Positions 207 through 5,034 of a stretch of 5,034 nt of DNA are shown here, piece by piece; positions within the stretch are counted from its first letter, which is position 1, and the number at the start of each line of letters is the position of its first letter. A program made the position numbers and the translations under genes. Under the pieces are notes generated by a model. That model did no database searches and was not told the DNA's origin. It saw only the letters and a program-made list of their open reading frames with translations. The stretch spans positions 1-5,034 of the forward strand of contig RFHZ01000216.1 of assembly GCA_003696125.1 (NCBI GenBank). Direction: 5' to 3'. Source of the DNA: Nitrospinota bacterium (GTDB lineage Bacteria; Tectomicrobia; Entotheonellia; J063).

Positions 207-740
207 ATGATTCGAGAGTTTAACGGCATTCGACCAAAGATCCATGAAACCGCCTTCATCGCCGAGACGGCCATGGTCATCGGAGAGGTGGAGATCGGCG
301 AGGAGTCGAGTGTCTGGTTTAATACCATCATCCGGGGGGATGTGGGCCTGATCCGGATCGGGAACCGGGTCAATATCCAGGATGGCTGCCTGCTCCATAA
401 CAATACCGGTGGTCCCTATCTCATCCTGGAGGATGAGGTGAGCCTGGGGCATTGCGTGGTGGCCCACGGCTGTACCCTGAAGCGACGCTCCCTCATCGGC
501 ATCGGTGCCATCGTGCTCGACGGCGCAGTGGTGGGGGAGGAGAGTATTGTCGCCGCCGGCACGCTGGTCCCCCCCGGCATGGAGATCCCTCCCCGCACCC
601 TGGTCATGGGCTCCCCGGCCAAAGTGAGACGGGAGATTACGGAACGCGACTATGAGCTCATCAGGCGGACCTATACCGAATACGCCAAACGAGGACAGGT
701 GTACAAGCGACTCGGTTTTGAGCGAGGCCAGGAGGGATGA
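207..740 (+). CDS. Gamma-class carbonic anhydrase-like protein (left-handed beta-helix)
   Basis: This 177-residue protein is a typical single-domain member of the gamma carbonic anhydrase / YrdA / CaiE family, expected to be a cytoplasmic trimer. It shows hexapeptide repeats of the left-handed beta-helix from about residue 10 to 140 (for example VIGEVEIGEES and SLIGIGAIVLDGAVVGEES). The three metal-ligand histidines are all present: H64 in the DGCLLHNN segment, and H82 and H87 in GHCVVAHGC. R43, D45, Q58 and D59 match Arg59, Asp61, Gln75 and Asp76 of the archaeal enzyme Cam. The C-terminal GSPAKVRR motif (135-142) is also typical. It lacks the acidic loop carrying the proton-shuttle glutamate of Cam, as most bacterial homologues do, so CO2 hydration activity is plausible but unproven. 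AAGGAGG (195-201), five bases before the ATG, supports the start. It lies upstream of the mutase operon, 99 bases from the mutase ATG, so a metabolic link is possible but not shown. Confidence 0.9.
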   Translation: MIREFNGIRPKIHETAFIAETAMVIGEVEIGEESSVWFNTIIRGDVGLIRIGNRVNIQDGCLLHNNTGGPYLILEDEVSLGHCVVAHGCTLKRRSLIGIGAIVLDGAVVGEESIVAAGTLVPPGMEIPPRTLVMGSPAKVRREITERDYELIRRTYTEYAKRGQVYKRLGFERGQEG

Positions 741-839: not shown

Positions 840-2543
840 ATGGGCGCGAGTGACCAGGGACTACCCCCTCCTCTTTCGGCCATGGCTGCGGCCAGGGCTG
901 ACTGGACAGAACGGGAGCTCAAGCAGGCACTGGAGCGTCTCCCGGAGCGTCAACCGGAGTTTAAAACCCTTTCCGGTTTGCCGGTGAAACGCCTGTACGG
1001 CCCGGAAGATGTCATAGAGCTCGATCCCGTAAACGATCTCGGCTTTCCCGGTCGCTATCCCTTTACCCGGGGACCTTACCCCACCATGTACCGCTCCCGA
1101 CCCTGGACCATGCGCCAGATCGCCGGTTATGGACAGGGGAAAGACACCAATGCCCGCCTGAAGTACCTGATCGCCCAGGGGCAGACCGGTATCTCCATCG
1201 ACTTCGATATGCCTACCCTCATGGGGTACGACTCTGATGATCCCCGCTCGCGGGGAGAGGTGGGCCGGGAAGGGGTGGCGGTCGATACGGTAGAGGATCT
1301 TGACGAGATCCTTGAGGGTATCGATATCGGCTCCATCAGCGTCTCCATGACCATCAATCCGACCGCCTGGATCCTCTTTGCCATGTACCTGGTCATCGCC
1401 GAACGGCGCGGTGTGCCCCCGGAAAAGCTCTCCGGTACCGTCCAGGCCGATATCTTAAAGGAGTATATTGCCCAGAAAGAGTGGATCTATCCCATCCCTG
1501 CCAGCATGCGTATCGTGCGTGATCTCATCATCTACAGCACGCAGCACCTTCCCCACTACAACCCGATCAACATCAGCGGCTACCATATCCGTGAAGCAGG
1601 AGCCAATGCCATTCAGGAGGCCGCCTTTACCCTGGCCAACGGGATCGCTTATGTGGAGGCGGTCTTAGAGAAAGGGATAGATGTCGATGCCTTTGCCCCG
1701 CGTCTCGCCTTCTACTTCATCGCCGAGCGGGATTTCTTTGAAGAGATAGCCAAGTTCCGGGCAGCACGCCGGGTCTGGGCCAGGATCATGAAAGAACGCT
1801 TTCATGCCCGGAAGGCGGAGTCGATGCGCCTCCGCTTCCACTGCCAGACGGCCGGCTCGAGTCTCACCGCCAGGGAACCGCTCAACAACATCGCCCGGAC
1901 CACACTACAGGCCCTCTCCGCCGTGTTAGGTGGGGCACAGAGCCTGCATACCAACGGGATGGATGAAGCCCTGGCCATCCCCTCGGAGCTGGCGATGAAG
2001 GTCGCCCTGCGTACCCAGCAGATCCTCCTGGACGAAGCAGGGGTGGCCAATACCATCGATCCGCTGGCCGGTAGCTACTTTGTCGAGTCCCTGACCAATC
2101 AGGTTGAGGAGGGGATCTGGCAATACATCCACCGCATCGATGAGCTGGGTGGGGCGGTAGCAGCAGCAGAGCAGAACTTCTTCCAGGCCGAGCTGGCCGA
2201 GACCGCTTACCGCTACCAGCAGCAGGCAGAGCGGGGAGAACTGGTGCGGGTCGGGGTGAATAAATACGTAGACCCCCAGCAGTCCAGCGAACTCCCCTTC
2301 ACCCTGCATCAGGTCGATCCGGCCGTGGAAGAGCGGCAGAAGAAACGGCTGGCAGAGATCAAGGCAAAACGGGATCGACACAAGGTGGAGCATTGCCTGC
2401 AAACCCTGGCCGCAGTGGCCCGCACCGATGAGAACCTCATCCCTCCCACCATCGAAGCGGTCAAGGCACACGCAACCCTGGGAGAGATCGTCAACACGCT
2501 CAAGGATGTCTTCGGTACCTATGTCGAGAAGCCGGTTTTTTAG
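840..2543 (+). CDS. hcmA: B12-dependent acyl-CoA mutase large subunit, 2-hydroxyisobutyryl-CoA mutase-like
   Basis: This 567-residue protein is the substrate-binding TIM-barrel chain of a split adenosylcobalamin-dependent mutase. Its length fits stand-alone large subunits (about 550-570 residues) and it has no B12 domain of its own. The family core is clear: [11 protein letters not shown] (80-90), the FDMPT..GYDSD segment, [11 protein letters not shown] (199-209), and NISGYH with His249, equivalent to catalytic His244 of Propionibacterium methylmalonyl-CoA mutase. Aligned to that enzyme, substrate-binding Tyr89 is Ile94 and carboxylate-binding Arg207 is Gln212. Methylmalonyl-CoA mutase needs both. 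Isobutyryl-CoA mutase has Phe and Gln, and 2-hydroxyisobutyryl-CoA mutase has Ile and Gln. I infer an HcmA-type enzyme that interconverts 2-hydroxyisobutyryl-CoA and 3-hydroxybutyryl-CoA, or a close relative such as a pivalyl-CoA-type mutase. The family is certain and the substrate is inferred. The ATG at 840 is chosen over one at 792 on ribosome-site grounds. The small subunit follows after 10 bases. Confidence 0.9.
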
Positions 2544-2553
2544 GGGAGAGAGG

Positions 2554-2970
2554 ATGGCACAGCGGAGAGTTCGTATTCTGATGGCAAAGGTTGGTCTGGA
2601 CGGTCATGACCGTGGAGTCAAGGTGGTGGCTCGTGCCCTGCGCGATGCCGGTTTTGAGGTCATCTATACCGGTCTCCATCGCACCCCGGAAGATGTGGCC
2701 GAGGCAGCGGTGCAGGAGGATGTCGATCTGATCGGTGTCAGCATCCTCTCCGGCGCTCACATGGCCCTCATTCCCCCCTTGCTGGACCGGTTGCGGGCCA
2801 ACGATGCCGCCGACATCAGGGTGGTGGTCGGTGGGGTCATCCCGCAGGAGGATCAACAGAAGCTCCTGGACCTGGGGGTTGCTGCCGTCTTCGATCAGGA
2901 GACGACCACGGCGGAGATCATCCGGTGGATTCGCCAGGAGATCGGCGATACCGCCACCCTCTCGGTATAG
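2554..2970 (+). CDS. hcmB: B12-binding small subunit of the acyl-CoA mutase (HcmB-like)
   Basis: This 138-residue protein is the cobalamin-binding Rossmann-like partner of the preceding large subunit. It carries the base-off/His-on signature DxHxxG (D16, H18, G21), with His18 as the lower axial cobalt ligand. The SxL element (S63-L65 in GVSILSG) and the GG pair (G93-G94 in VVVGGVIP) follow at the usual spacings. The length matches stand-alone B12 subunits of split mutases (about 130-145 residues). In the last loop, where methylmalonyl-CoA mutases read VFGPGT, this protein reads VFDQET. Glu116 then falls at the position of the Asp that positions the substrate hydroxyl in HcmB of Aquincola tertiaricarbonis. 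That alignment is from memory and could be off by one or two residues, and Asp114 is also nearby. GGGGAGAGAGG directly precedes the ATG. A longer in-frame start at 2428 overlaps the large subunit and is rejected. The ligase gene follows after 11 bases. Confidence 0.92.
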
Positions 2971-2981
2971 GGGGAAAGGTG

Positions 2982-4409
2982 ATGGATTTCCAGCACTGGC
3001 CACCGGTCTACGATGAGCACTACTTCCCCGCTCCGTCCCAGCGTTACTGGTTTCCGCACATCGAAACCATGGATCCGGCGGAACGCGAGACCCTGATCCT
3101 GCGAAAACTGCAGGCCATAGTGCGCTGGGCCTGGGAACACTCCCCCTTCTACCGGCAGAAATGGGAAGGGGCAGGGGTGCATCCCGATCATCTACGCACC
3201 CTGGACGACCTGCACCGCTTCCCGGTCGTGACCAAAGCAGAGCTGCGACGCGAGCAGGCCGAACATCCCCCCTTCGGACGCTATCTCTGTGTGGATCGTT
3301 CTGAAATTATCCGCATCCATGGGACCTCAGGGACGACCGGGAAACCGACCGTCTTTGCCATTGGCCGGGATGACTGGCGCCGTATCGCCAATGCCCATGC
3401 CCGCATCATGTGGGGGATGGGACTGCGTCCCACAGACACCATCTTCATCGCCTCCTTTTTCAGTCTGTACCTGGGGAGCTGGGGGGTGCTGGTGGGAGGG
3501 GAACGGCTCCAGGCCACCTGCTTCCCCTTTGGTGCCGGGGTGCCGGGACAGACGGCTATGGCGGTCCGCTGGTTGCGCGAGATGCGACCGACCGCCTTCT
3601 ACAGCACGCCCTCCTATGCCCTCCACCTGGCCGAAGTCGCTGCCGAGGAGCAGATCGATCCGCGCGATTTCGGTTTTCGTCTCATGTTCTTCTCCGGAGA
3701 GCCGGGGGCAGGGATTCCGGCCACCAAACGGAAGATCGAGGAGATCTTTGGCGCCCGGTGTGTCGACAGCGGGAGCATGGCGGAAATGACCCCCTGGATG
3801 TCCAATGCCGAGTGCGCCTTTCGGCACGGGATGCATCTCTGGCAGGATCTGGTCTACTGTGAGGTCTGCGATCCGCAGACGTTTGAGCCTGTTCCCTTTG
3901 GCCGCGAAGGGACCCCGGTCTACACACACCTGGAGCGCACCTCGCAGCCGATGATCAGGCTCCTCTCCGGCGATCTGACGCGCTGGGTGAACGAGCCGTG
4001 CGAGTGTGGTCGCACCTATCCCCGTCTCCCCTATGGCATCTATGGACGCATCGACGATATGTTCATCGTACGGGGTGAAAACATCTATCCGAGCGCCATC
4101 GAGGATACCCTGCGGCCGATGGAGGGATTTGGGGGAGAGTTTCAGATCATTATCGACCGGGAAAAGGCGATGGATAAGCTGGTGATCCGGGTGGAGTACA
4201 GTGAAGAGTGGGCGCAACAGGCGAAGATCACACCCGGAACGCTGGACCAGTTGCAAGACCAGATGGCCAAACGCCTGCGCAGCGTGATCGGGGTCTGGCC
4301 GGTCATCAAGCTGGAACCTCCCGGCACCTTACCCCGGACCGAGTTTAAAGCCAGGCGCGTCGTCGATAACCGCCAGCTCTACGAGGCGCTTGTGGAGCCG
4401 TCTTCCTGA
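2982..4409 (+). CDS. Phenylacetate-CoA ligase-family acyl-CoA synthetase (probable 2-hydroxyisobutyrate-CoA ligase type)
   Basis: This 475-residue, AMP-forming acid-CoA ligase belongs to the PaaK branch of the adenylate-forming superfamily and is cytoplasmic. Visible motifs are the ATP phosphate loop IHGTSGTTGKPT (112-123), the LSGDLTR segment with Asp331, the hinge region GRIDDMFIVRGENIYP (355-370), and a C-terminal PRTEFKARRV with Lys456 as the likely catalytic lysine. The region usually reading D-x-YG-x-x-E in PaaK is DSGSMAE (262-268), so the aromatic residue is replaced, which suggests a different acid pocket. C278, H285, C340 and C342 could form a structural zinc site, as suspected in some PaaK-like proteins; this is inference. 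In known 2-hydroxyisobutyrate operons a PaaK-like ligase of similar size (Hcl) accompanies hcmA and hcmB, so the same role is likely here: making the mutase substrate from the free acid. The ATG at 2982 follows GGGGAAAGG closely; a GTG sits just before it at 2979. A longer start at 2925 lies inside the previous gene and is rejected. Confidence 0.88.
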   Translation: MDFQHWPPVYDEHYFPAPSQRYWFPHIETMDPAERETLILRKLQAIVRWAWEHSPFYRQKWEGAGVHPDHLRTLDDLHRFPVVTKAELRREQAEHPPFGRYLCVDRSEIIRIHGTSGTTGKPTVFAIGRDDWRRIANAHARIMWGMGLRPTDTIFIASFFSLYLGSWGVLVGGERLQATCFPFGAGVPGQTAMAVRWLREMRPTAFYSTPSYALHLAEVAAEEQIDPRDFGFRLMFFSGEPGAGIPATKRKIEEIFGARCVDSGSMAEMTPWMSNAECAFRHGMHLWQDLVYCEVCDPQTFEPVPFGREGTPVYTHLERTSQPMIRLLSGDLTRWVNEPCECGRTYPRLPYGIYGRIDDMFIVRGENIYPSAIEDTLRPMEGFGGEFQIIIDREKAMDKLVIRVEYSEEWAQQAKITPGTLDQLQDQMAKRLRSVIGVWPVIKLEPPGTLPRTEFKARRVVDNRQLYEALVEPSS

Positions 4410-4483: not shown

Positions 4484-4604
4484 AAGAGGGGAATAAGGTA
4501 TTTTTCATGCCAAGGAGGTGATGTTTACTCGTTACCGTCGGGAAGGTAAGCAGGTGAAGATGAGGAAGGCGTGTGGCTTTCACCAAAACAGAAAGGAGGA
4601 GAAT
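4484..4604 (+). promoter_or_regulatory. Long 5' leader with an unused strong ribosome-site sequence
   Basis: The predicted leader holds AAGGAGGTGA (4512-4521), a perfect 10-base complement to the 16S 3' end. It runs straight into an ATG at 4521, with no spacing for that ATG. A 5-bp stem TTACC/GGTAA (4532-4536 with 4545-4549) and a 6-bp stem GGTGAA/TTCACC (4553-4558 with 4579-4584) are possible. I recognise no known riboswitch. The real start probably uses AAAGGAGG at 4592-4599, five bases before the ATG at 4605. Confidence 0.3.
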
Positions 4605-5034
4605 ATGAAGAGACTGTTTTGGATCACGGTATTGGCGCTGGGAATACTCTCCGTAGGCTGGAGTGGTGCTTTTGCAGGTACAGCCTGCCTTGATGCTGTT
4701 ACTGCTTGTAATGACATAAAGATTCTGTTCAAGGGTACCGGCGATCCAAAAATCCTCACTCTCAATGGATGGGAGTATGGGTGTAATCGGACAGACCGTA
4801 TGATCTATGGTACAATGAGAGTCGAGGGGAACACCGCTTCGATAAACTACACAAAGAGTGGGCTACTTGGTAGCGGTGGCAACTTTGATGCAACCTATGT
4901 GGCGATTATCGATCTCACCACCAACTCAGGGCCGTATACTTTTACGCAAACCGGTGGGGGCGCTACCGGCGGGAGTGGGACATATAATGTGATCGCCTGC
5001 CCGCCATCTGCCAGCAGTGCGGACCGGTTTGTAG
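4605..5034 (+). CDS. Secreted protein of unknown function, 3' end outside window
   Basis: I do not recognise this family. The frame is open for 143 codons to the window edge without a stop, so the gene is incomplete. It begins with a clear Sec signal peptide: MKR, a hydrophobic stretch from about residue 4 to 19, and a probable signal peptidase I site after AFA (residue 24). No lipobox is present. The mature part is rich in Gly, Thr, Ser, Asn and Tyr, with alternating hydrophobic stretches that suggest beta-strands. It has four cysteines (28, 35, 60, 132) that could form disulfides outside the cytoplasm. The segment from about 109 to 125 is very Gly/Thr-rich. The coding sequence looks more A+T-rich than the upstream operon. 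It has its own ribosome site (AAAGGAGG, 4592-4599) and a predicted promoter, so it is probably not part of the mutase operon. In-frame starts at 4521 and 4560 would add a basic extension before the signal peptide and are less likely. Confidence 0.75.
   Translation, partial: MKRLFWITVLALGILSVGWSGAFAGTACLDAVTACNDIKILFKGTGDPKILTLNGWEYGCNRTDRMIYGTMRVEGNTASINYTKSGLLGSGGNFDATYVAIIDLTTNSGPYTFTQTGGGATGGSGTYNVIACPPSASSADRFV

Follow-up and report, generated by a model that had tools for sequence, protein, structure and literature searches.

The window, an entire contig (C531) of 5,034 bases from the genome of an uncultured bacterium (4.18 Mb in 990 contigs), very probably carries hcmA-hcmB-hcl, the gene set for the known route from 2-hydroxyisobutyrate via 2-hydroxyisobutyryl-CoA to 3-hydroxybutyryl-CoA, as judged from its predicted proteins. 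The 2-hydroxyisobutyryl-CoA mutase (HCM) system is already known, and the window is a further member from a phylum with few genomes (five compared, its own included). The right name changes the predicted metabolism, i. e. a 2-hydroxyisobutyrate user instead of another propionate enzyme. A sequence-only reading had warned that a default label as methylmalonyl-CoA mutase (MCM) would mislead; this is indeed the annotation given to the orthologues of Methylibium petroleiphilum PM1 and Xanthobacter Py2.

Gene layout, small subunit and ligase

The following features were assigned:

207..740, + strand: gamma-carbonic-anhydrase-family hexapeptide protein, 177 aa (NF050158 223 bits, below the cut-off of 250)
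840..2543, + strand: hcmA, predicted HCM large (catalytic) subunit, 567 aa (PF01642 703 bits; PDB match 4r3u_A; tree)
1119..1121, + strand: codon of Ile94 (= HcmA Ile90 = MCM Tyr89; alignment)
1200..1202, + strand: codon of Asp121 (= HcmA Asp117; Ala in MCM and the isobutyryl-CoA mutase type; alignment)
1473..1475, + strand: codon of Gln212 (= HcmA Gln208 = MCM Arg207; alignment)
2554..2970, + strand: hcmB, predicted small B12-binding subunit, 138 aa (PF02310 102 bits; DGHDRG motif at residues 16-21)
2979..4409, + strand: hcl, predicted 2-hydroxyisobutyrate-CoA ligase (PaaK-like, AMP-forming), 476 aa, GTG start (PDB match 6hdw_A; GTSGTTGKP motif)
4602-5034, + strand: 5' part of a gene whose product begins like a signal peptide (MKRLFWITVLALGILSVGWSGAFA), ending at the contig edge; family-model searches with it gave zero matches

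The start codon of hcmA is uncertain (ATG at 792, 840 or 882), and residues are numbered from the ATG at 840. Gaps of merely 10 bases between hcmA and hcmB and 8 bases between hcmB and hcl suggest that the three putative genes form a single operon. Contamination of the bin was considered and rejected, as GC content and tetranucleotide profile lie within the range of the other contigs (r 0.937 for the window against the genome, compared to 0.90-0.99 for the other contigs and 0.38-0.70 for flanks of related loci), with the proviso that a foreign source of similar composition would look alike.

The separate small subunit displays the DxHxxG motif of B12-binding proteins in the form DGHDRG. Its best PDB matches are 2yxb, a subunit of another B12-dependent mutase (147 bits), and then 4r3u_C, the small subunit of HCM (137 bits). 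The ligase appears to be a counterpart of the 2-hydroxyisobutyryl-CoA synthetase 6hdw_A, with which it shares the PaaK-like family and motifs and which leads its matches among solved structures by 380 bits (641 bits; next is PaaK 4r1l with 260 bits). Generic family models recognize it as phenylacetate-CoA ligase, under their cut-off.

Active site and phylogeny of the large subunit

The closest solved structure of the large subunit is HCM (4r3u_A, 716 bits, versus 476 bits for human MCM), and identities amount to 58.6% with HcmA of Aquincola tertiaricarbonis and 41.9% with MCM from P. shermanii (1req). Ile94 in TMRQIAGYG and Gln212 in AQKEWIYP are exactly 118 residues apart, and a three-way alignment with 4r3u and 1req equates them with HcmA Ile90/Gln208 and MCM Tyr89/Arg207 (the PDB sequence of the latter numbers both one lower), so that coordinates and alignment agree on the assignment made by the sequence-only reading. 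Tyr89 and Arg207 presumably hold the substrate carboxylate in MCM; neither is present in the window protein. The strongest signature residue, which that reading lacked, is Asp121. It aligns with HcmA Asp117, a site at which both MCM and the Phe/Gln mutases have Ala instead. Ile90, Asp117 and Gln208, which we take to determine HCM specificity, have their roles reportedly from the HCM structure study of Kurteva-Yaneva et al. 2015. This Ile/Asp/Gln triad, i. e. the HCM signature, is complete in the window protein, and the site of Ile94 harbors neither the Phe of the isobutyryl-CoA mutase type nor the Val that we take to mark the RCM type (Kyrpidia tusciae RcmAB).

A scan of genome contigs yielded 80 related loci with 56-83% identity from MAGs or isolates of Rokubacteria, Methylomirabilota, Chloroflexota, Myxococcota, Acidobacteriota, Actinomycetota, Nitrospirota, Planctomycetota and Pseudomonadota. 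All 80 relatives carry Asp and Gln at the signature sites, while the third position is Ile in 78 and Leu in two. This conservation argues against a chance origin of the Ile/Gln pattern, even if part of the uniformity stems from selecting the relatives for their resemblance to the window and HcmA. The selection bias is countered by a tree that in addition contained MCM, Phe/Ala/Gln, Tyr/Ala/Arg and Val/Asp/Gln rows. All Asp-bearing mutases fell into one clade with 100/100 support, including the window and excluding the Tyr/Ala/Arg rows. The Val/Asp/Gln rows from Shinella and Sinorhizobium, which serve as stand-ins for RcmAB and are called RCM-type by signature only, branch within this clade. 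They share Asp and Gln with the window protein, but have Val at residue 94.

Two further mutase large subunits of the same genome served as internal controls, one with Tyr/Ala/Arg on contig C293 and one with Phe/Ala/Gln on contig C811. Both share 53-54% identity with the window copy, little below the 59% of HcmA. Overall identity therefore cannot decide between the classes; residues and tree do. The C293 copy adjoins genes for a biotin carboxylase and a biotin carrier protein (named by reading the translations), as expected of a propionate-type MCM, whereas the isobutyryl-CoA-mutase-like C811 copy belongs to a clade other than that of the window. With these two separate enzymes, the MCM role in this genome is already filled.

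That the window encodes an ordinary MCM is hence hardly conceivable. The large subunit strongly matches family models named methylmalonyl-CoA mutase and shares with MCM (1req, human) the expected fold and B12 chemistry, but Ile and Gln occupy the sites of the Tyr/Arg pair, the protein groups with HCM outside MCM in the tree, the C293 copy with its biotin-dependent neighbors is at hand, and the equivalog model for MCM (NF006944) scores 615, well under its cut-off of 876. On the basis of residues, tree and this score, the MCM identity was rejected. An isobutyryl-CoA or pivalyl-CoA mutase is highly improbable, in a comparison that covered MCM, the Phe/Gln type, HCM and Val/Asp/Gln rows. Gln212 is common to the Phe/Gln mutases, but Phe is absent, Asp121 is present, and the C811 copy in its different clade fills the Phe/Ala/Gln slot, for which reasons an isobutyryl-CoA mutase was likewise rejected. 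The earlier assignment as HCM-type rather than MCM is thus borne out by the Ile/Asp/Gln residues, the clade and the closest solved structure.

Predicted pathway and substrate

The identity and order of the genes, together with the signature residues and the clade, lead us to infer as follows which reaction HcmAB catalyzes, in what direction it runs in the cell and with which stereochemistry. Hcl would activate 2-hydroxyisobutyrate with ATP and CoA to 2-hydroxyisobutyryl-CoA. HcmA and HcmB may then jointly hold adenosylcobalamin and the CoA ester, with Ile94 and Gln212 standing in for the carboxylate-holding Tyr/Arg of MCM and Asp121 probably binding the substrate hydroxyl. In a radical 1,2-shift, the thioester carbonyl would migrate from the tertiary to a methyl carbon, giving 3-hydroxybutyryl-CoA, most likely as the (S)-ester as in Aquincola, which is expected from Ile rather than Val at residue 94. 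This product could enter ordinary β-oxidation via acetoacetyl-CoA by a 3-hydroxyacyl-CoA dehydrogenase, followed by thiolysis. Candidate genes of the 3-hydroxyacyl-CoA dehydrogenase type are found on contigs C97 and C835.

The sequence-only reading had proposed a branched acyl-CoA without free carboxylate as substrate. This view is supported and can be narrowed, as Asp121 together with the adjoining 2-hydroxyisobutyryl-CoA ligase homologue specifically indicates 2-hydroxyisobutyryl-CoA as the putative substrate. It is rather unlikely that the main substrate is instead a larger 2-hydroxy branched acyl-CoA such as 2-hydroxy-2-methylbutyryl-CoA, or that the enzyme runs in reverse from 3-hydroxybutyryl-CoA, with 2-hydroxyisobutyryl-CoA as a minor substrate. 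Such a role would accord with the position of the window's subclade deep in the HCM clade and with two residues close to the active site that differ (Tyr292 in place of Phe, Ile120 in place of Thr). Moreover, a B12 mutase of Desulfosarcina cetonica is also expressed on butanone and pentanones (PMC7888143), and HCM of Bacillus massiliosenegalensis also converts L-lactyl-CoA (PMC11599936). Yet, the three key residues are those of HcmA, and the adjoining ligase has the 2-hydroxyisobutyrate ligase as its nearest match. Quite improbable is a function in acetone assimilation, in which a thiamine-dependent lyase would combine acetone with formyl-CoA to 2-hydroxyisobutyryl-CoA ahead of the mutase. Sulfate reducers use this route (PMC7888143), and about 21 of the 80 HCM loci have a 2-hydroxyacyl-CoA-lyase-like gene nearby. 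It needs no ligase, however, whereas the window has one and lacks the lyase. In the genome, no thiamine enzyme exceeds the cut-off of the 2-hydroxyacyl-CoA lyase model (best 319 bits versus 600), which makes the acetone route less likely. The preferred reading remains the ligase-dependent use of 2-hydroxyisobutyrate.

Gene neighborhoods and distribution

Like HcmAB of Aquincola (4r3u), the window system consists of two separate subunits with Ile/Asp/Gln and a linked hcl, but it falls into a separate deep subclade. The gene order hcmA-hcmB-hcl also differs from hcmB-hcl-meaH-hcmA in M. petroleiphilum PM1, a documented HCM strain whose HcmA is almost identical to 4r3u in the tree. The PM1 locus reads GntR, hcmB, hcl, meaB, hcmA, hypothetical, adenosyltransferase, thiamine enzyme, gamma-carbonic-anhydrase family protein, adenosyltransferase and 3-hydroxybutyryl-CoA dehydrogenase. 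A meaH chaperone gene and a GntR regulator often flank HCM genes, while neither is found on the 5-kb contig; meaH was also undetected in 9 of the 39 relatives with long flanks. One MeaB-type GTPase gene lies elsewhere in the genome on contig C30, and its product could act as chaperone. The missing meaH and GntR genes count against the HCM reading, as do the limited identity of 59% with the characterised enzyme and the deep position of the window's subclade.

On the available stretch, 68 of the 80 relatives have a linked hcl and 64 a linked hcmB; for the 39 relatives with long flanks, the counts are 36 and 38, respectively. This is in line with the report that hcl shares an operon with hcmAB or rcmAB (PMC7176365). 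The surroundings of the Val/Asp/Gln mutases are different from those in the window: on the Shinella and Sinorhizobium plasmids (L136, L137), the mutase and its small subunit are accompanied by a LysR regulator, MeaB, an enoyl-CoA hydratase and another AMP ligase. Many HCM loci (about 21 of 80) in addition harbor a thiamine enzyme of the 2-hydroxyacyl-CoA lyase type, for example L047 (9467-11176), L066 (8598-10322) and L082 (1944-3683) besides about 18 others. NF058623 scores 785-836 bits for the two tested (L082: 785.6 bits), and lyase and mutase routes thus appear to meet in one cluster at these loci. A SAR324 locus (L044) combines an oxalyl-CoA-decarboxylase-like enzyme with HCM and has no ligase.

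The gamma-carbonic-anhydrase-like gene of the window lies 99 bases upstream of hcmA on the same strand, and its product conserves three zinc-ligand-type His in comparison with 3vnp. Such genes occur near 29 of the 80 HCM loci and also in the clusters of PM1, Xanthobacter Py2 and Agrobacterium deltaense. Loci with a gamma-carbonic-anhydrase/PaaY-like hexapeptide gene by the HCM genes comprise L026, L028, L051, L056, L062, L063 and L068, as well as L077, L085, L098, L133, L134 and L135. These neighbors are either single-domain proteins or double-domain proteins with a degenerate zinc site; in the double-domain proteins of PM1 and Py2, zinc-ligand-type histidines are lost in the second domain. 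Nineteen genomes with a total of 63 Mb contain about 20 strong homologues, a density at which chance would place about 0.25 such neighbors at 80 loci of some 10 kb each. This is only a rough guide, as the loci share ancestry and the linkage itself was the reason for including some genomes. On the other hand, the homologues most similar to the gene in the window (45-52%), from one Rokubacteria and two Myxococcota genomes, are not near HCM, and hence its location may be accidental. It is possibly an accessory of the hcm operon in the window. That it encodes a functional, hitherto unrecognized accessory of 2-hydroxyisobutyrate metabolism, such as a PaaY-like thioesterase that removes dead-end CoA esters, is doubtful.

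The closest kin of the large subunit stems from an ANGP1 MAG (83% over 441 columns; its contig stops within the gene), followed by a Dehalococcoidia MAG (72%). Four other genomes of the same phylum hold no comparable mutase (best match 54%), which would fit a patchy or horizontal mode of spread as well as gaps in the data. The spread of relatives over many phyla suggests that 2-hydroxyisobutyrate is a widespread substrate, the natural source of which has been called not yet identified (PMC7176365). More sampling of natural HCM diversity would also aid engineered carbon-fixing pathways (PMC11599936). In one genome of 2.5 Mb (G036), 19 matches to the mutase were found, some of them partial, pointing to an unusual expansion of B12 mutases.
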